NCBI GenBank assembly: GCA_018398765.1
Contig: JAHBMJ010000639.1
Coordinates: 1 to 30,000 of the forward strand
DNA: 30,000 nucleotides
Direction of reading: 5' to 3'
Origin: Chromera velia
Taxonomy: Eukaryota; Sar; Chromeraceae
Part shown: one piece after another, positions 10,100-29,969 of the stretch
Layout of the letters: every line of letters starts with the position of its first letter
Position numbering within the stretch: the stretch's first letter is position 1
The notes under the pieces: generated by a model
Seen by the model: the letters and a program-made list of their open reading frames with translations, nothing else
The model's database searches: none
What the model was told of the DNA's origin: nothing
Program-made: the position numbers and the translations under genes

Positions 10100-13000
10100 T
10101 CAACTGAAAAAGACATGAACAACCGACTCGACTTTCTGCCTACACACGGGACAAAGACCTGTTTTTCTTTCCACCTGCTCTGCACAATCTTTGCATGCAA
10201 CCATATGCCCCGTCTTTCCGTGTACAAAGACATGGTCAGCTGCCGTCTCTCTGCAGATGTGACACTTCCTGAACCCCCCATGAACGGCTGTCTGCCCCCC
10301 CGGACTCAAATCGTCTTTGCCCGAAACGCTCAGCTGACTCTCATACAGGATGGCATTGTTCGAAGCACGTCGCTCCTTGATGCCATCTCCTGCCGAATCG
10401 TCCATCGCATCGACCAAAGAGGTTCCGACGTCAGACAACCCTGGCGACCCCCCTAAGTGGAAGGGCATGGAACTTCCACTCCTCTGTTTCCCTCCCCCCT
10501 GAGAGACGACTAGGATCTCCGTCAGGTGTGTGCGCCATTTCTTGAGGAGACCAGGGAACGCTACGATCACGTCACCGTCGTCATACACTTTCGTGACCTT
10601 CCCTATCATCCCATGGGGCACACGACCCCACCCGTACAGAGGTTTGGCAATCGTCGGCTTCAGTCGACACGGGGCGCCTACCGAGATTCTCTCCGCTTCT
10701 TGATCGATCTCGATGTCCTGGGGGAGAACCTTGAAGGCCCTGTCGGCAGGGAAGGCGACGCACAGAATGGGGATCTCCATTCCCCCCTCGTCTGTCCCAT
10801 CTGGACCGGGCACCTTCACAGAGCCCCCCTTCAGTCCCCTCACAACTCCCACATCCGAACCCCTCGAGCCTCTCAGATTGCCCGAACCTGCACGACCATA
10901 GCCAGGGCAACACACACACGCACACACACACACACACATGTAAATATATATGAATATACGTGGACAAAGTGCCATACTGTTGGCACAAGAGAAACTCCGA
11001 TTCTTCTGGAAGACTGATCGTCAGACGTTGTGAAAAGAGAAAAAAAAAGGGACATACGCAGACGAACAGAGAGAGAAACAGACCGACAGAGCCGATGCAC
11101 AGAGAGAGGGAGAGGAAGTCATAAGAGGATCCCCACGAACGAACACTACAGAAAAACGTCGATCTAGAGACGGAAAAAAGGACGGACTGACCGAGCACCG
11201 GACTGCCAACGTCGTCCTTCAGTCTCACGCGGTCACCCAGGGAAAACCCGTCACAGATCTTCACATAGCGTTGCCGTTCTCCTGTCTCATGACTCGGAGA
11301 CGGCTTGTCTTTCCCCGACTGTTGTTCTGGATCGGTGGACGGACTGGAAGGGCCAGCGGTGCCTGCACCAGCGACCCCTGTGGTGGCCGCTGTTGGTGTG
11401 TTCCCCTCTGCATTGCCCCCCCCTTCAGCTTCCCCCTTAGTTCCTGGTGAGTCTGCTTGAGAGGACGCTGCTTGAGCTGATCCACCCTCTCCCTCCTTTT
11501 GCTCCTCCATTTCCCTCCCCTCTCCCTCTCCCTCTCCAGGTACCAAGGCAGGCCCCATACCGGCGAGATCGGGGCATTCTTTGGGATCTACAGCCTCCAG
11601 TTCTCCTAGGGGCGCCTTCCAACAGCACTGCTTGGAGGGAAAGTCCGCCTCCACGATACCATTGGCAGAGATCGCAAAGACACGACCAACGAGACCGGGA
11701 GCCACGGCACCCCACTCAAATCGGGGATTGTCGATGCTCGGCTTCACTCGGATAAGAGACCCAACCTGCATTGCAAGCAAGCGAGTAGGCGAAACGAATT
11801 ACTATGACGCGCATTCAATTGAAAGAGAACGTCTGCCTGTACCGTCTTTTACTCTTGTTTTTCATGCGCACGCATACGAACGCACACGAAGTACAGAAAG
11901 AGAATCAGAGAGGAAAATGAGAAGAGTCAAACAAGCCACCCCACTTGAATCATTTTCTCTCTTCTTTCCACCTGCGCATTATCTTACCTGCCTATTCACT
12001 GTGTGGCTCTCTGACAGAAAAGTGGAATCGAGCCACACAGCCGCACACCCAGCTTACCTGTATCTTTGCTGCCTCCTCATCTCTGCAAAGCTCCTCCTTC
12101 AACGCTTTGAAAGAAGGAGCTTCGGGAAAGTTCACGACCACCGCCAGCCCCTTCTCTGTCTGCTTGTGGTCAACCACCAGCCCCACGTCGTGACGGCAGT
12201 CGTCGACCATATTCCCGAATCCTGCAGGCAGGCAGGCAGGGAGGGAAGAAAAGGGAAAGGAGGAGGGAAGCAGGCTGATCGGATTACGTGGCTTCCTCCT
12301 TCGCTTTTTGACGCGGGAAAGACTTGCAAACATAAGCCACCAGGCAGGCAGGCAGGCCGGCATCCAGAGTGCTGTGCCCGCAAGCAGGGCGGAACGGAAA
12401 GGTTTGCCGGCTTGCAGGGGGAAGAGAAAACCGAAAACAGGTAGCTAAAAAGAAAGCAAAGGCAGGGAGGGTAGTCGGGGGAGGGAAAGCTCATTCTTCA
12501 AGACATATCCACGTATACGGACAGACACGAAGACGTGAAGATCGGCAGACAGTCAAAGATACTTGGACAGGCAGATAGAAGGATGGATACAGAGAAAGGC
12601 GCACTGCCTGGTTATCCAACTGACCGAAAGTCATGTTCTCCATTTCCGGTTTGACTCTGACTCTCTCGAGGATATCGAAGGAGCCTCCGGGTTTGTCCAT
12701 GGAGATTTTCAGTTCGGTGCCGTCCTCGTTCAGGACTGCGCTTGCACACTGGGACTGGAGGCAAGCCTCCCGAACGGCATTGCAGACAACCTCCCACACT
12801 CCCGAGTCGAACGTCGTTCCCTTTTCGAAGATGTGCAGGAGCATATGGAGGACCCTGCACATGATAGAGGGTAGTATGACCCCAGACCCTTCCAGGTGGT
12901 TCGAGGAAACCGTCTGGAGAGAGACCGTGTACGTGTCTGAATCTGCCTCCACCTGCAAGATAAAAAAGAATGAAGAGAAAACAAACAGAAGAAATCCAAC

Positions 13001-15827: not shown

Positions 15828-18800
15828 ATGCAGAAGATCTGTGCTGCTCTTGCTGTCGGAGTTGCCTCCGGATTCCAGCTCTCCTCCGTCCCCTCCTCTT
15901 CCACCCTTCTCTCACGTCGATCTCACACGCCTCTCAATGCTGAGACACAGGAGGGTAAGCACCGCGCGACAGGGCAGAGACGACTTTTCATTTTGGAGGT
16001 TGGGGGTTTCAATTTTTTCCGTCTCCGTCTCTTTTCTTGCTTCTGCTCTTTGCAGCTCCCCGCAAGTACAGGGTTGCCGTCGTTGGAGGTGGTCCTGCCG
16101 GTGCGTGCGCTGCCGAGATTTTTGCAGAGAACAAGGACATGGTGGATGTTTACCTGTTTGAGAGAAAGATGGACAACTGCAAGGTGGGTGGAGAGAATTG
16201 AACTTCTTTCACTGGAGACTTCCCCTCTCTTCTTTTTTACGTTTTTCTTTCATGGCATCTCTTTGCTGCGTCGCGGCACCTCGAACGTGCTTTCCCCCCT
16301 CTGTTTTAGAGCGAGCTCTTTGTTCTTGCGCGATGGAAGGAAGAGGGCAACGGGAGCTGATCAAAGCAGCAGCCATACCTGTCCTTCACGACAAACAATC
16401 CCGGGCAGTCCCGGAGACGATGGTTTTCCGAGTCAGCATCACGTCATACGGCATCCACAAACTGTCTCCCACCAAAGCGCAACAATACGTGAACTCTACT
16501 TGTCGTGGCTGCAGCCCTGTGGAGGTGCCATTCCCCTGTGCATGATTGATGAGTTCTCTCTGCCCAGAGGTCCGTCTTTCACACACACACACACACACAT
16601 ACACACAGAGACGCACTCATGTACACATACATTATAAAGAGCGTCAAACTGTCTTCCGTATTTTCGTGCTGTTGGTTCCTGGCTCTCAGTTATTCTTCCC
16701 TCCCCTTTCCGCTCCCCCCTCACTCCCGCCCATGAACGAGTGAGTCCTTGTGTTTGGGTCTGCCCCTTGATTATTTCTTTCTGTCTCCTCTCCTCTCGCG
16801 TCGCCTGCTCTCTCGTTTGTTCGCGATGTCTTCGCATACCGGGCCCTGGTTTCATTTTGTGGGCTGTTTCCACTCGTTCCCTTGGTACTCGCATCTGCAA
16901 AGCTCGACTCTCTTTCTGTGCTCTCTTCGGACTTTCGTACACCTCTTCTGACGCACGCAGAAATTGTTGACCGCGAGGTCACCTCAATGAAGATGATCTC
17001 TCCCTCTGGAAATGAGGTCTGTTCGTGAGTGAGTTGTCCGGGGCAGGGAGAGGGCGAAGGCTTCAGGGTAGATCGACATGCTGGCTGCATTGTCAGGGAG
17101 CTCGAAAGGGAGTCAGAGTGGAGGAGAGAGTCATACGGGAGGAGCCCTCTGCTCCTTTCACCAGAATCTGTTTGTTGTGTCTTGCTACAATCTCTTTTCT
17201 CCGTGTCTTTCACCGACTTTGCGTGTTCTCCTCTCCCTTGCGTGTGTGGGTGTGTGTGTGTGTGTGTGTGTGTGAGGCTGTGGGCGTGGCTTTCTGGGCG
17301 TTTCTCTCTCTATGCTGCGGTTTGCCGATTTGAGGGAAAGGGTGGAGCATGCGGTTACTGAAACGAGATTGAGGCGCGGGCCTTCTGCATGCATATCAAA
17401 CAAGGAAGCAAAAGCTTGCAGTCTATGATGCGCAGTGTTTGTGTTCACTTTGGAGCATTCACTCATCTCGGTCTCTAGAGCTCCTGTAAAGCATTCACTT
17501 ATGTCGGTCGTTAGAGGTCCTGTAAAGCAATCATTCTCTGACGGGGTTTGTTCCTGGTGCTTTGCTACTCAGACTGCTGTATAGATCTCTGTGCATCGCA
17601 ACTGAACCTTCCTTCGCTGTGCAGGTGGATGTTGGTGCAACTTTGAAGGACGGCGAATTCATTGGCATGACCCGTCGTGAGATTCTGGATAAGTACCTGA
17701 GAGACAGGGCGGTCGAGAAGGGAGCTAACGCTATTAACGGGCTTGTGACCAAGATTGATCTCCCAAGGGAAAAGGACGGAAAGTATACTATTCACTATTC
17801 TGACTTCGGAGCATCTGGCACAAAGGGCCGCTCTGGGCTCCCCTCCTCGATGGACTTCGACTTGATCATCGGGGCAGATGGTGCGAACTCCCGCGTTGCC
17901 GAGGCAGTGGGTGCAGGAACGTATAACTACGCTATGGCCTTCCAGGAGAGAATCAAGATTCCCGATGAGAAGATGAAGTACTACGAGAACTTGGCTGAGA
18001 TGTACGTGGGAGACGATGTATCCCCCGATTTCTACGCTTGGGTGTTCCCCAAGTACGACCACGTTGGAGTGGGCACAGGCACCGTCGCCAACCGCCCCGC
18101 TATCAAGAAGTACCAAGAGGGAATCAGAGTGAGGGCCGCAGAGAAACTCGGAGGAGATCAGGGCAAGGTCATCAGAGTGGAGGCCCATCCTATCCCTGAG
18201 CACTACAGACCTCAGAGAGTCGTTGACAGAGTCGCTCTCGTTGGTGACGCTGCCGGGTCGGTTTTTTTCGTCTGAATCTTTCGCCTCTCTCTGTGTGGTT
18301 GTTTTCTTCGGGACTTTTTTCTTTACCTTTGACTCTCTAGACGAACAATGAAGGGGTCAAGAATGGAACGAGGAGAAGGCTGGATGGAAGGGGGGGTGCC
18401 AGAAGTTGTGTTTTCGCTTTCTCCATTCATGTATTGCTGTGGGGCAGAAAGGGGAGAGGGAGACACCGGGGGCCGGGGGGGCTTGGCGGATGGATGGAAC
18501 AGAGGGAGGGAGCGCACGCAGGCAGAGAAGCAAAGCAGAGAGACGGGAAGAAAGGCAAGAGAAGAGGCCTGCGGGTGCTGTGAGGACGTCCGTTCTTCCT
18601 CTCATGCCTTCTGGTTTGCTGTGTACTGATCGATACGGTCTGTCTCTCCGTACCTGTCTCTTCCTGCCTTCCTTCCTGTGTGCAGATACGTGACCAAGTG
18701 CTCTGGTGAGGGTATTTATTTCGCTGCCAAGTCTGGGCGCATGGCTGCTCAGGAGATCTGCCAGCTCATGAAGGAGAAGAACCGTCTCCCTACTCAGGGA

Positions 18801-22891: not shown

Positions 22892-24129
22892 TTACGATGG
22901 AGGGCGCAGACAGATGTTTTGTAAGAGTCGCAGGGCCGGTATGGGTGAGTGTCTGAGTGCCAGGGTAACCTTCATTCGTGCCAACAATTCGCTTTGCGTG
23001 GCGTGTTTTAGAGGGGTGGAGTCTATCGATAGCAACCACTTTCTCTCTCTTTCTTGGGCTCTGTCTAATTTGGCTTCAATTTCGGTTACAATTGCATTCA
23101 GAGCCTCTCGATCTGCTCTTATTTCTGTGCATTCAGTCAGTCGGTGCAGTAGATCGTCTGCTTTGCCCCTGCATGCAGGGCAAACCACGTCTTCCAGCCC
23201 TCTGTAAGGTGCATGGGGGCGACCACCAAGCAACATATACAGTAAGGCTAAAAAAGGGCCTGAGGACCAGATCGCAGCGCGAGGGAGAGAAACGAAACGG
23301 GAGGACGAAGGGGATGAGGGAAAAGTAGAGGAAAGGAAGAGGAGAGACGAACGTTGGGCAGTAGGATAAGACGTTTGGAACACATTCGGTCTGACGCCTC
23401 TGCCAAACTGCAAAACCGCCCCCTGTGAAGCGGCCCTTTCTAGACAACCATCAATCCATTCATCAACTTCCCGGTTGATCACTGCTCTTAAGAGAAGGAG
23501 ACGGCCAACTTTGGTAGCTTTCTTCCTTCTCTTGATCGTTGGATTGACAGTCACAAATTCTTCCAATCTGGTCGACCCAATCAATTTTTGTGCATGCATC
23601 ATAGAGGAAGGACAATCACCATTCATTAAAGCCGACCAGGCACCCGCGGGCATCTTGAGGTCAATATGTTTTAAGTTAGTCAAATACCCCGCAAGTCTCA
23701 TCGACATGTGCACACGTGCAGGAAGTAGACCGACAGCACACAGAGTAGGTACACGGAAAGAGGAGAGAGACAGATTCAAAGCCCAACGGACAAAGCACAA
23801 TTGAAGGGCATCTAATGCATCCATGTCTAACTTGCGCACAGGCAGACAGTCAAACACGTATAGAGCAACAGGCAACCAGAAAGCGCATAGACACAAAATT
23901 TTTGCTACGGGGGGCAGGCGACCTAAAGAGAGTGCCACGCTCTTTGCATGACCCATCCGTCTACTCGCTATGCTAAGCCTCTCTTCTATTACCTCCCTTA
24001 AGTCTCCCCCTTCAAACAAAAGAACACCCAAATACTTATACGACCCCACTTTCTCGACTTCTTTTCCCCCAAACACAATCCTGCCTTCAATTGCAGGGTA
24101 AGAGTCGGATAGACGCATGATTTTCGTCT
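22892..24129 (-). pseudogene. LINE ORF2, C-terminal part after the insertion
   Basis: An open stretch of 408 residues from 24118 to the stop at 22892, in frame with sequence up to the insertion at 24129. It starts in the RT thumb region (GSYKYLGV at about 24046-24023) and ends with a zinc motif CPACRGKADDLLHRLTEC at 23182-23129, as found at the C-terminus of many LINE ORF2 proteins. It has no internal stop, in contrast to the upstream half. It is not a separate gene: its apparent first Met is internal to ORF2. The 3' untranslated part runs from 22891 to about 22563. Confidence 0.85.
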
Positions 24130-24137
24130 TTTTTAAA
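24130..24137. repeat. Target site duplication, left copy
   Basis: TTTTTAAA, immediately outside the left terminal inverted repeat; its partner is at 27519-27526. Because the flanking LINE sequence is T-rich, one base of length ambiguity is possible. Confidence 0.75.
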
Positions 24138-24182
24138 CTGACTGTACTGACAATTGAAACTTTTGTACTAGAAAGTGACTTT

Positions 24183-25770
24183 TTATTTTCTATATATCAT
24201 ACTAAATTTTATATAAAAAACTAAGTCTCTAAAGCACCTAGAATGATTCTATTTATTGTTTCTTACCTGCATGAAAGTATGAACAACTTTTAAAGATAAG
24301 GTTTAATGGGTTTGTGGTATGTATGTTGGAAATTGTTGGACGTGAGTGAGGTGAAAGAGTTATAGTATATTGATATATCGGGGAGTGATTGCAGACTCTG
24401 CAGGTATATGACAATGTACAGTGTAATGCACAAACAAGCTAACTTTTACTTCTAATGGAATACGCCGAATCCGGACACTGATGTAAGGAGGGAGCACATA
24501 GCGGGTAACCCCCATGAAAGGTAAGAATGAATGTCCGCAAACAGATCTACCGATTTGACACCCACAGAAAGCAGTTCAACCAAACAAATGTTGAGCACTA
24601 TGACCGTGCAAGAGGTAAATGCTTAGCTTCTGAAAGCCTGATCGATCCATGGCCTCTAGCCAGAGGGCCTTGCCCACGACCAGCCATCATAGCGTTCTTA
24701 TTTTTTCTGGGTGAGGCCCGGCACTGGCCAGGTAGTCTGGCCACTGGGTTTTAGTCCACCGAGGAGCCCTACCTCCAAATTCTTATGCAAACAAGAGCTG
24801 CGCCTCACTCCCACAACTTCAGATCACCTGAGATTACCAGCCGTAATGCTTCTTCACGAAACCCAAGCACCGACAAACGGTCAGTCTGACCTGCAGCATA
24901 GATATGCAAAAAATTATAAAGTGGCTCACCTTCTGGCCACCCAAAGCTGGCCCCCTCATCCAGAAAGCCTTTTCAGCTCCTCATTTAGAGCTTGTTAGAG
25001 CGTACGTATGGAAAGGATTCAATAGAAGCTTTACTGGGGCAACTTTGTAGGCCCCTTTACGTGGAGACGGGCCGTACCCTTCGTGATGGAAGATCGAAAT
25101 TGCCCTCTCAGGGCAGCCAGTAGAGTGAATATCATAAACCCAAGAAAAAGCAAAGAAGCCAATCCTCTAGGCTTTCGATTAAGCCTACTTTCATTGCTGG
25201 AGAGCAAGTCTGTGTGATGGGAGAGAGGCGGCACTAGGTTGTGCTCTGATCGACTTGAAACATTCAACGGAAAGCCGATTTGGGGAGCGGATTTTAGATC
25301 GGCCAACCATGTGACGGCCCCGAAAGGCAAGCTACGCGTTATAGGCCAGGGCCCGGCCGGCCACTAAGGCCAAAAAGCACTTCCCGGCTGCGCGCTGACC
25401 CATCAAAATGCCGATCTGAAAAATTTGCAGTCAGGTCTTCAGAAAGTTCTCCTCCAGTCAAAAAGTCGGATCAACAGAATGGGCCTCTATCCACAAAATC
25501 TCATTGTCAAACATTCCATTGGATTGTATTGGAAGGCTTGACAACGACGAAATCGTGTGCAGCTTTTTATTCCAGAACCTCATTTTTGGAGGGGTTACAG
25601 ATTCCAGAGTTTTTTCCTCCTCCGGTATCTGTGTTAGCTGGACACCTCTGATTACTCGTGGGAGTGGTTGCCTCGGTGCAAAGGAGTTGTACAACAACTA
25701 AAAGGGTCAGCGGAGTGGTTTGGATCGCTCAATCAGGTCAGTTCGTTTTGTGTCGTTCCACCAGCAACAA
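24183..25770. other. Interior of the DNA transposon, origin unknown
   Basis: Several unrelated frames of 65-99 codons lie on both strands (for example 25330-25031 minus, 25697-25458 minus, 24527-24754 plus). None carries a motif I recognise. A segment with GGCCCGGCCGGCC at about 25350 breaks the AT-rich trend. It could be captured host or organelle sequence, or a decayed element body. Confidence 0.35.
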
Positions 25771-25994
25771 GGGGGGGTGGACCCTTTCGCAGGGGTACGA
25801 AGCGGCCCAATTTCGTACCCCTAGTGGAGGGGGAGGGTCCGACCTGCTCTGCAGGTTTGCGTCCAAAATGTGTCTAGGAAATACTCCTAGACACATTTTG
25901 GACGCAAACCTGCAGAGCAGGTCGGACCCCCCTCCTCCACCAGAGGTACGAAATTGGGCCGCTTTGTACCCCTGCGAGAGGGTCCACCCCCCCC
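25771..25994. mobile_element. Hairpin MITE, near-perfect palindrome
   Basis: A 224-bp inverted repeat: the left arm begins GGGGGGGTGGACCCT and the right arm ends with its complement. The arms are about 110 nt each with only a handful of mismatches and a 5-nt loop around 25880 (TCTAGGA-AATAC-TCCTAGA). It contains no coding capacity. It would form a very stable hairpin as RNA or single-stranded DNA. A target duplication was not resolved. Confidence 0.8.
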
Positions 25995-26387
25995 TCCCAG
26001 CGAGGGAATTAAAAAAATTTTGTTTGCAGAGATGAGCTTTCTTGGTACATACAGAAGGCTTTGTATGATGTCTATAAGTGTTCCTGTGTGGTTGCAACCT
26101 GGCCATTGTGGTTGCTGAGCGACTGACCGGTCTGCCCTCGGCAAGGCAAAAAACTGCCGTCTCCCTTTACGTGTGTTGCTCACCCTTTCCCCCCTTCTCT
26201 GCTCTTTGTAGGTCGTTGGTCTCATTTGGGAGATGTTTGTTCTGGGCCCCAGGCTTTCTTCAACTCTTTTAGAGGTAGGTCTTTGCATCTTCGTTACGGT
26301 CGCAGTCTTCAGACTGCGAAAGGGAGCAGCACCCATACGTGCCGAGCCTGTGTTTTTTTCTACCAGCCTGACTGCTTCCAAAATTTT

Positions 26388-26955
26388 GCCCTTCTTTCCT
26401 GCTTGACTGCCCTCTAGCTTTCAGCCTTTCTGTCTGGCTAAATGCCTTTCCAATTTTAGCCTTTCTGCCCATTCTATTGCCTTTCTAATTTCGGCCTTCG
26501 CCGTGCTTCCAATTTTGGTCTTTCTGTCTGCCTCAATGCTTTCCAAATTTCGGCCTTTCTGTCTGCCTGACTGACTTTGCAATTTTGGCCTTCCTGCTTG
26601 TCCGGTTGCCTTCCCAATTTTGGCTTTCCTGCCTGCCTGATTGCCTTCTCTATTTCAGCCTTCGTTCCCGCCTAAGTTTCCTCCTAACGCTTCCTAATTT
26701 CGGTCATCCTGCTTGCCCGATGGCCTTCCCAATTTTGTTTTTCCTGCTGGCCCGACTGTCTTCAAAAGTTTGGCCTTTTTGTATGTCTGACTGCCTCCCA
26801 GAGTTCGTTCTTTCTGCCCACTTGCCTGCCTTCCAATTTCGGTCTTCTTGGCGGCCTGACTGCCTTCCAATTTTAGTCTTCCTACCCGCCTGATTGCCTT
26901 CCCGATTTCGGCCTTCCTGCCCGTCTGATTGCTTTCCCAATTTCGGTTTTCCTGC
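26388..26955. repeat. Minisatellite, 34-36-bp unit, about 15 copies
   Basis: Degenerate units follow the pattern CCAATTTYGGCCTTCCTGCC then TGACTGCCTT. The AATTT landmark recurs at intervals of mostly 34-36 bp from about 26450 to 26940. The unit length is not a multiple of three, so the basic, Gln/Gly/Arg/Lys-rich frames on the minus strand are a by-product and not evidence of a protein. Confidence 0.8.
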
Positions 26956-27120
26956 TTTCATGTACTTTCATATATCATTCTGACGCAAATTAAAGATACA
27001 AGTTATGTTTGCATGCATGCTTTTATGTGGATTCTGGCGATTCGACTGACTTTCTGTTTGTGTGCACGTATTTTTGCAGGTGGCGTTTACGGGTGTGTAT
27101 GTTTGATATATACTGAGATG

Positions 27121-27152
27121 TCCCCCCCCTCCCCCCCCCCNCCCCCCCCCCT
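27121..27152. repeat. Poly-C run with an undetermined base
   Basis: A C homopolymer broken by single T residues and one N at 27141. The true length is uncertain because such runs are hard to sequence. Confidence 0.9.
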
Positions 27153-27518
27153 GCCCCTGACATGCCCGCCGTTGAGCAGTGCCTCATATGAATTAAAAAC
27201 AAAACAGTTATGATCATGAGAAGAAATGCTTCAATCAGATCGATTCAAAGCCATTCAGATGCATTTTTTATTGTGTTTTCATCTTAGCGTTAATTTATGA
27301 TGACAGGTACCAGACAATTTATGGTTTTAAAAAAATATATACTCTATATATACATTTTTTTATTTCATTTTTTAAACATCTTACTAAGCTTAAATAGTCT
27401 TAAATAAATTATGAAAATCAATTTGTTTAAAGGTTAAACTATCTATTTTAATGGTTTAAAAACTAAATTTTTCAAAGTCACTTTCCAGTACAAAAGTTTC
27501 AATTGTTAGTATAATCAG

Positions 27519-27526
27519 TTTTTAAA
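27519..27526. repeat. Target site duplication, right copy
   Basis: TTTTTAAA, immediately outside the right terminal inverted repeat, followed by the interrupted LINE sequence TTAACAGTGAG. Confidence 0.75.
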
Positions 27527-29969
27527 TTAACAGTGAGCCCTCTCTCTTCACAGAAAAAATTCAATTCATTCAAGCTGCATAACCTGCAGGTCATGTACGC
27601 TCTCAGCAACGAGGACAAGGTCATCGGCGTAACCAAGGCTATCGCACTCAACCCCACCGAGCAGAACCTCTGTACGATCGGAAGCCTTCACTCTTTCATA
27701 CAGATCATTAATGAAAATCAAGAAGAGAAGAGGGGAGAAAGGATCTTCTTGTTTCACCCCTTTCTCTTCTTTGAACATAAAAGGGCTGCCAGTGATGCTT
27801 CCGTACACATTTGTATACATTGTCCGAATCATTTTGATATCGATTGCACTCACCTTTTGCTTCAATAAAACTTTAAACAAAACATCCCTGGGCAGGGAGT
27901 CAAAGGCTTTGCTGAAGTCTACAAAGCATGCTAACAAGGGCTTCTTTCGTTTCTTTGCCTTTTGCATCAGCGTGGTAAGTGTTCCAATGGCTTCTCTTGT
28001 TCCTACCCCTTGCTGAAAACCCAACTGCCTATGGTCAATCTTCACCTGCGATGTAAGACGGGCAAAAAAGAGTGAAGAAAAGAGTTTTAATAAGAGTGAG
28101 ACAATATGAATCGGACGCTATTCACCAGAATCGGGGTAGGGAGGCCCCTTTGGAACCGAACAGATTTTAATTACATTCCATTCATCTCGCCAAGTAGATG
28201 TCAAGTGAATTAAATTCAAATGGATAAATAACAAAGCATGAGAAAGAGGTGAATATTGAAAGCAGAGGGAGAGGTGGTTGGGGGCGAGTCCGGACAACCC
28301 TGCAGCCTTTTCCTCTTTTGTAGACCGAAGGACTTTCCTTATTTCTTCTATGCAAAAATAAGGGCAAGACGGAGGGATTGGTGGGGGCAAGGGGGGAGAG
28401 TGAATGCTAAAGGGAACCTAATAAGAGTGGGCATGCAGTTGCAAAAAGACGCCAGGGTGCAAAGAAGAGTTAAAAACGGGCGGGGCTGGCTGTGAAGGAG
28501 GGAAAGGGGGAGCACTTCCTTATGTAGATTCCCTACCACAGGGAGAGTCAGCGAAGATGGAAGCCCAGTGGCAAAAAAAGTCCTTTAATGAAGGCTGGGA
28601 ACCAGGAGGGGCTTTCTCTTTATTGCTTCTTTGCAGCTTTCTTCTCAATGACCAGACCTTTGAAGGGTTGGAGGACAACTCGAGTGCAACCTTTTCTGCA
28701 CAGAGCTTCTCGTACACCTTTCTTTTCCTGTTATGCAATCGCAGACATCTGCGGGCCTGCTTTTCAACTGTCTGTCTTAAAGCAACCACGTTCACTCTGC
28801 TGCTCCCACTTCTCCCCTCATTCTCACATGATTGCACAAGTTTATTCAACGTCTTCCTTGCTTCCCTCCAAAGTGTCGCTGCTTCCTTGCATTTATTATC
28901 AAACCATTCGGCCTTTTTCTTTTGTCTCACTTTTTTCCTGCCCTGTTGACCATCCAAATCCTTCCGCTTGATTTCTTTTGTCGGGCCGGCCAACGTGGTT
29001 TCCCATTCTTTCAGCAGTAACTTTTCCTATTCACAGAAAGACAAGGGCACCGGTTGCTCACATAAGTTGGGAGCAGACAGTGGGGGGGGGGGAGCGGATG
29101 GAAAAGAAGAGAGATCAATGTTTTCAGCTTTGCAAGCTATTTTTACAAGTCCAGGCCATAGCTGTTCAGCCAATTGACCAGCTGCTGCAGCTGAGGGGAG
29201 AAGCTCCTCGTCTGAGACAGGAGTGGATCTGACGGAGCAATGAAGGGAAGGGATAGGTAAAAGGGAGTTCTCTTTGCTGTTTGGCTACTGAGGGGGAATG
29301 AAAGGGGTAGCAACAAGGGATAAAGAAAGTGATACAGCTGCATGGTCAAGCTTGGACAGTTCTGCTGGCTGTTTCACATCGAAGTGAGTATAAGCACGGA
29401 GGAGGGGAGGATCAACAAGAAAAAAGTCAATCAGAGTGTGACCCCTACCTTTCCAGAGGAAGGTGCATGCAGTCACGTGAGAAAGAGCGTGCTTCCCCAC
29501 TCCAAGCGGGGGCAGAACCATCAATGCAGAGACCATTTAAAGGGAGAAGATTCATTAGTTCACAGAGTTTTAAAAGAGAACGGCCCTGCTGATCAACTTT
29601 TTGGTTGCAAGACGAAGCACAGACTACTCCCGATACATTCTCTTCCTAAATGATTCCGTTCTTGTTTTGTACCCCCCTATCCTAGGTAATTTCTTTTGGC
29701 AGCTCATCGGAGATGTGAACGTTGAAATCACCAGTCATAATTCTCCTTTCTCCTAGAGGAACTTCCGACAATGCATCTGTTAGGCGTTTCCAGTGGCTTG
29801 GATCCCCGCCTTCCTCCCCTCTCCTAGTAGACCGTCCGTATAGCACATATACTCCAAACACATGCAAAATACAGGACTTGCTGTGTGCATCGAATCCACC
29901 AACACGCAATGACGCACGCAGCATGGATGGGCCGACCAGTTCGATCTCAGGCCTTAGTCGGCCTCTCAA
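27527..29969 (-). pseudogene. LINE ORF2, endonuclease and reverse transcriptase part (broken)
   Basis: Endonuclease: GDFNVHISDE at 29732-29703, then DQQGRSLLKLCE, the IDFFLV strand (29431-29414) and SKLDHAAVSL (about 29356-29327), the SDH-like catalytic His motif. A linker rich in Lys/Arg follows (28993-28523). Reverse transcriptase: EEIRKVLRSTKEEKAAG, QLGFQQGVGTREAI, FVDFSKAFD (27925-27899) and YADD (27631-27620). Breaks: stops at 29684-29682, near 29646, at 29287-29285, 28522-28520, 28420-28418 and 28120-28118; a frame change near 29525; another near 27575, just after YADD. GVKQ is followed by Glu where the family has Gly. Stretches between breaks stay in one frame, so decay is moderate. 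Upstream coding continues past the window. Confidence 0.85.

Follow-up and report, generated by a model that had tools for sequence, protein, structure and literature searches.

A probably non-autonomous DNA transposon with 4-bp target-site duplications nested in a LINE of Chromera velia

Introduction

Superfamilies of DNA transposons include ones with targets of 8 bp, of 3 bp, TA or TTAA; hAT, P and Merlin elements make 8-bp target duplications, and piggyBac and Kolobok elements use TTAA. A typical MITE is shorter than about 3.4-3.6 kb. Of the described elements that come closest to the family reported here, Sola2 has AT-rich 4-bp targets and ends of 12-21 bp (PMC3627910, in the excerpt used here). 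Ginger elements have ends of the form TGTNR and targets CCGG/CCGT or RTATAY, according to the excerpted text of PMC2836005, and Chapaev (CMC) elements make 3- to 4-bp duplications and have ends that are invariably CAC...GTG, as stated in an extract of PMC4079192.

Here we examine a window of 30,000 nucleotides from Chromera velia (assembly GCA_018398765.1, contig JAHBMJ010000639.1, positions 1 to 30,000), in which the initial annotation had placed a DNA transposon inside a LINE. Comparison with other copies in the genome indicates that a non-autonomous cut-and-paste DNA transposon very probably inserted there into a LINE already in place. The event is an ordinary nested insertion, and it is used below to define the ends and the target-site duplication of the transposon family.

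Results

Element boundaries and terminal inverted repeats

The element occupies positions 24136-27520 on the plus strand and is 3,385 bp long, in keeping with the approximately 3.4 kb first proposed, and its paired ends recur in the same genome. Its left terminal inverted repeat (24136-24182, plus strand) is 47 bp long, starts with AACTGACTGTACTGACAATTGAAAC and is identical to the right one (27474-27520, minus strand) at 43 of 47 positions. In the window sequence itself the inverted arms extend over 53 nt (24130-24182 and 27474-27526, 89% complementary), of which 47 bp form the true inverted repeat, so that the long inverted ends initially claimed at 45 bp are real and slightly longer. The element begins with AACTGACTGT, slightly altered in some copies, and ends with the complement of AACTGACTGT; AACTGACTGTACTGACAATTG is an end sequence of the transposon family.

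The edges had earlier been set at 24138 and 27518, two bases inside the true ones at 24136 and 27520. The LINE reading frame had also been taken to place them with an uncertainty of one base, but a model with 4-bp duplications and one with 8-bp duplications both delete 3,389 bp and yield the same joined sequence, and because an outward shift of both edges changes element and duplication in step, the frame cannot separate the two. The boundary is instead fixed by comparison among copies, in which the left-end start position is common to copies with differing flanks.

The host LINE and its empty sites

The host LINE lies on the minus strand. Its upstream part (27525-29026) contains a reverse transcriptase at 27566-28117 (RVT_1, E 4.4e-20) whose protein continues beyond the insert on the low side, and an open reading frame at 28520-29026, without a Pfam match, is assigned to the LINE by position only. 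The part downstream of the insertion in the LINE direction covers 22892-24135; the frame continues across the joined site and stays open as far as 22892. Removing the insert with one duplication rejoins the LINE codons in frame (...ERGLTVNLKKTKIMRL...), as the initial annotation had stated.

Empty sites were sought with the joined flanks as query (400 + 400 bases, extending 400 bases into the upstream part), which gave 113 candidates, 40 of them scored. All 40 scored LINE places match the 800-base query at 91-94%, each spanning the junction, and thus run through this place without the insert. In all six LINE copies read base by base the junction reads CTTTTTTA|AATTAACAG, and no base is inserted or deleted there.

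The window's own LINE copy contains, 53 bases beyond the right duplication, a 4-bp insertion, CATA (27578-27581), which is absent from the six other LINE copies read and shifts the LINE frame. This frameshift is separate from the transposon scar. The insertion accounts, in the six copies read, for a match length of 796 rather than 800 bases, a length shared by 27 of the 40 LINE matches. It is conceivable that CATA is an excision footprint of a transposon, its length equalling the family's duplication, although the 4 bp do not form a clean duplication.

A target-site duplication of 4 bp

The element is flanked by TTTA on both sides (24132-24135 on the left and 27521-27524 on the right; both are assigned by copy comparison, the left one also by the empty sites). 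Duplications were examined across the family in 40 fetched loci, two of which are halves of one copy, so that together with the window copy 40 copies were available. Six without an end pair were excluded, leaving 34 with both ends recognised, and 33 with both flanks once L062, which ends at a contig edge, had been dropped. Directly outside the termini, with the offset kept constant, an exact 4-bp duplication is present in 21 of these 33 copies and one within one mismatch in 28, compared with 2 and 50, respectively, of 1056 control pairings of one copy's left flank with another copy's right flank. All 21 exact duplications differ in sequence, and the targets show no clear base preference and no AT preference.

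When lengths from 2 to 9 bp were scanned at offsets between -2 and +2, more than three exact matches were reached, besides the 4 bp, only in its 2-bp core (22/33); if one mismatch is tolerated, 13 copies match in a 6-bp cell that includes these 4 bp. Five of the seven one-mismatch copies differ by a transition (TGAT/CGAT, TGAG/TAAG, GCAC/GTAC, CCAA/CTAA, ACGG/ATGG) and the other two do not (TTGA/TAGA, ACAA/AAAA). No 4-bp duplication within one mismatch was found in 5 of the 33 copies (L052, L055, L063, L064 and C2017), of which L055 and C2017 are long copies with N interiors and the other three are without explanation.

A family of paired ends

The assembly that contains the window (177.8 Mb, 4040 contigs) was searched for further copies. 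First-look searches yielded 331 candidates with the left end and 306 with the right, as well as 203 and 208 with the interior; in each case 40 were scored. From two listings (100 of 120 places, and 74) and a selection of the scored left- and right-end matches, 189 ends were listed, among which at least 36 adjacent, inward-facing pairs occur: 26 spaced by 3,354-3,660 bp, five shorter and five longer. The family can therefore be defined by its termini, as had been proposed, since these do recur as pairs elsewhere. A search for the same inverted repeat with another adjoining base found 33 ends, 31 of them family ends already listed and the remaining two on C596 and C896.

Recurring paired terminal inverted repeats, a target-site duplication of constant 4-bp length and an empty site in paralogous LINE copies are all features of a TIR DNA transposon (class II). 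The 36 recurring pairs and the empty LINE sites (40/40 scored, 6/6 read) hence uphold the original proposal of a DNA-transposon-type element inserted in a LINE; the same internal sequence was not encountered at this place in the scored copies.

Reading of three of the five shorter pairs (C672, C3421 and C1755) showed them to be deletion derivatives. The first is 1,143 bp long, has the duplication GACT and retains approximately 540 bp at its left end and 600 bp at its right; the second, 935 bp long, retains both ends between flanks ACGG/ATGG. Shorter derivatives that keep both ends would be expected if the elements were moved in trans.

Interior of the element

The left 1.6-kb blocks of 28 copies have a mean identity of 93.4% (range 90.7-96.8%) and long tip branches. 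The right interior is less similar, its best pieces matching the window at 77-91%. Near the centre lies a near-perfect palindrome of 223 bp (25771-25993), self-complementary at 206 of 223 positions, and inverted arms occur near this position in 22 of 28 copies, three of the 22 having arms of only 33-62 nt. Long palindromes are usually unstable. Further to the right, Tandem Repeats Finder identifies a degenerate, pyrimidine-rich 35-bp tandem array of 12.5 units on the plus strand (26509-26955).

None of the four window ORFs scanned inside the element has a Pfam match at E <=0.1, and in the left-block majority sequence, where four of the five frames of at least 90 aa were scanned, the sole match (0.25) is at chance level. 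In the right half the scan took in window ORFs only. No transposase was recognised in the frames scanned, that is, the window ORFs and the left-block majority sequence. Rfam gave nothing in the window at gathering scores.

Sequence decay and order of insertions

Among 27 copies, 1260 of 1520 changes relative to the column majority are C>T or G>A and 114 are the reverse, demonstrating a strongly C-to-T-biased decay of the transposon copies. The window copy follows the same pattern (45 of 59 changes in 24136-25735). Rates depend on the following base, at 0.120 for CpG, 0.086 for CpA, 0.043 for CpT and 0.032 for CpC. The same lean is seen in seven LINE sequences, where it makes up 31 of 45 changes across 292 columns. 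Either methylation with subsequent deamination or a general mutation bias would be compatible with this C>T excess, the comparison being among repeats only.

The "dated order of events" of the initial annotation stands as an order at this locus, the LINE first and the transposon second, and gives no absolute date. This order is not general, since LINE-type frames were recognised by eye inside transposon copies C2574 and C2017, the former with its outer 4-bp duplication AAAG intact. By eye, the LINE proteins within these two copies are relatives of the one in the window yet distinct from it. Together these arrangements suggest that LINE and transposon were active over overlapping times.

Search for an autonomous partner

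The autonomous partner that had been hoped for was not found among the ends examined, which comprise the five longest pairs and 16 further left ends. The inserts of the long copies were judged by their reading frames rather than by Pfam. Two of the five have good outer ends and a long N run in the interior (C671, that is L055, and C2017, that is L053/L054, which also contains the LINE-type frames), and a partner could be missed there; in C671 the N may stand for a gap or for withheld sequence. C2574 contains LINE-type frames, judged by eye; in C436 the insert shows retroelement-like frames, likewise recognised by eye, and the 2.6-kb insert of C967 has no stop-to-stop frame of at least 160 aa.

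Twenty further left ends were sampled approximately 590-800 bp inside; four ran off their contigs and 16 were read. Ten of the latter have the usual interior, one is at a right end and five gave no match, these five being a 520-bp derivative (C3048) and four copies that diverge after 377-631 bp. Of these four, C2092 and C3437 share a new sequence, another high-copy short repeat; for the new sequence of C2205 and C3500, the 40 scored of 362 candidates gave no match other than to itself. No pointer to a coding partner emerged from the 16 left ends read, which are part of the unpaired ends. Most pieces of the high-copy short repeat inside the transposon copies L086 (C2092) and L093 (C3437) match at 94-99%, some at 86-90%.

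Discussion

Three other readings of the locus were weighed. The initial annotation had the element start with CTGA between 8-bp duplications of TTTTTAAA, which would point to superfamilies such as hAT. Such a match is indeed present at the window locus, yet it is exact in the window copy alone (1/33), against 21/33 for the 4 bp outside AACTGA, and at the proposed offset only 3 of 33 copies come within one mismatch, the other two being L038 and L066. Moreover, the bases AA and TT that it assigns to the duplication recur beside the ends in copies with different flanks. Beyond the 4 bp, the 8-bp match takes in the two outermost bases of each terminus together with letters that agree by chance, and we give this model practically no weight. 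The locus is thus a clean example of why target duplications are best called by comparing many copies rather than by inspecting a single one: the letters beside its ends imitate an 8-bp duplication that would point to the wrong superfamilies.

An arrangement of repeats that is composite or due to chance, rather than a mobile unit, might be suspected from the tandem array and the palindrome inside the element. It is extremely improbable, given that this unit recurs with its ends at many sites, between differing flanks and with 4-bp duplications, and that LINE copies have empty sites. Somewhat more room, though still little, is left for a decayed autonomous transposon whose interior would be a broken-down transposase gene. 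The left 1.6 kb common to 28 copies at a mean of 93.4% would suit such an origin, as would the longest open frame of the left-block majority sequence, whose 160 aa were equalled or exceeded in 7 of 200 shuffles; the scanned frames, however, have no Pfam match beyond chance, although heavy C-to-T decay could hide remnants.

A non-autonomous cut-and-paste element accommodates these observations by the following route. A transposase made elsewhere would bind the 47-bp inverted ends and excise the element, which would be joined to staggered cuts 4 bp apart in a target without clear sequence preference; gap repair would then leave the 4-bp duplication. That the enzyme is of the DDE type, that the route is cut-and-paste rather than another and that supply is in trans we infer from this pattern. 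The cut-and-paste route is proposed from sequence copies, excision not having been observed.

The family resembles non-autonomous cut-and-paste DNA transposons, such as deletion-derivative and MITE-like families, in its inverted ends and constant short duplication, in having no recognised coding and many copies, and in the shorter derivatives that retain the ends. Its length of approximately 3.4-3.6 kb exceeds that of a typical MITE, and its autonomous source was not found here.

A 4-bp duplication without clear base preference excludes superfamilies with 8-bp, 3-bp, TA or TTAA targets, so that hAT, P and Merlin are set aside by the single exact 8-bp match among 33 copies at the proposed offset, and piggyBac and Kolobok by the absence of TTAA from all 21 exact duplications. 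Sola shares the 4-bp duplication, which is not specific to it; the targets without AT preference and the 47-bp ends set the present family apart from Sola2 by description, not by transposase, as far as the excerpted account in PMC3627910 extends. Ginger1 and Ginger2 are alike in 4-bp duplications and long inverted ends, but the termini here are AACTGACTGT, with AACTG rather than TGTNR, and the 21 exact targets all differ (PMC2836005, excerpt). Chapaev, with its 3- to 4-bp duplications, is similar in this length and differs in its termini, which here are AAC...GTT and not CAC...GTG (PMC4079192, extract).

This is a new family of a known kind, its superfamily left unassigned. It was not seen among the papers listed for Chromera transposable elements or for 4-bp duplications; Repbase and Dfam lay outside the comparison, and no claim of an undescribed family is made. 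The combination of 4-bp duplications without clear target preference, 47-bp AACTG...CAGTT ends, a central palindrome in most copies and a transposase unrecognised so far in the genome might conceivably mark an undescribed superfamily, a prospect that we consider distinctly unlikely. The exact ends supplied here, of a family whose candidate places number in the hundreds, should be useful in repeat annotation.

Other features of the window

Elsewhere in the window, a geranylgeranyl reductase-type domain, which suggests that the host is photosynthetic, lies at 17526-18275 (GGR_cat, E 8.9e-7), and a RING finger together with a Mind-bomb-type SH3 repeat domain lies at 10100-11020.
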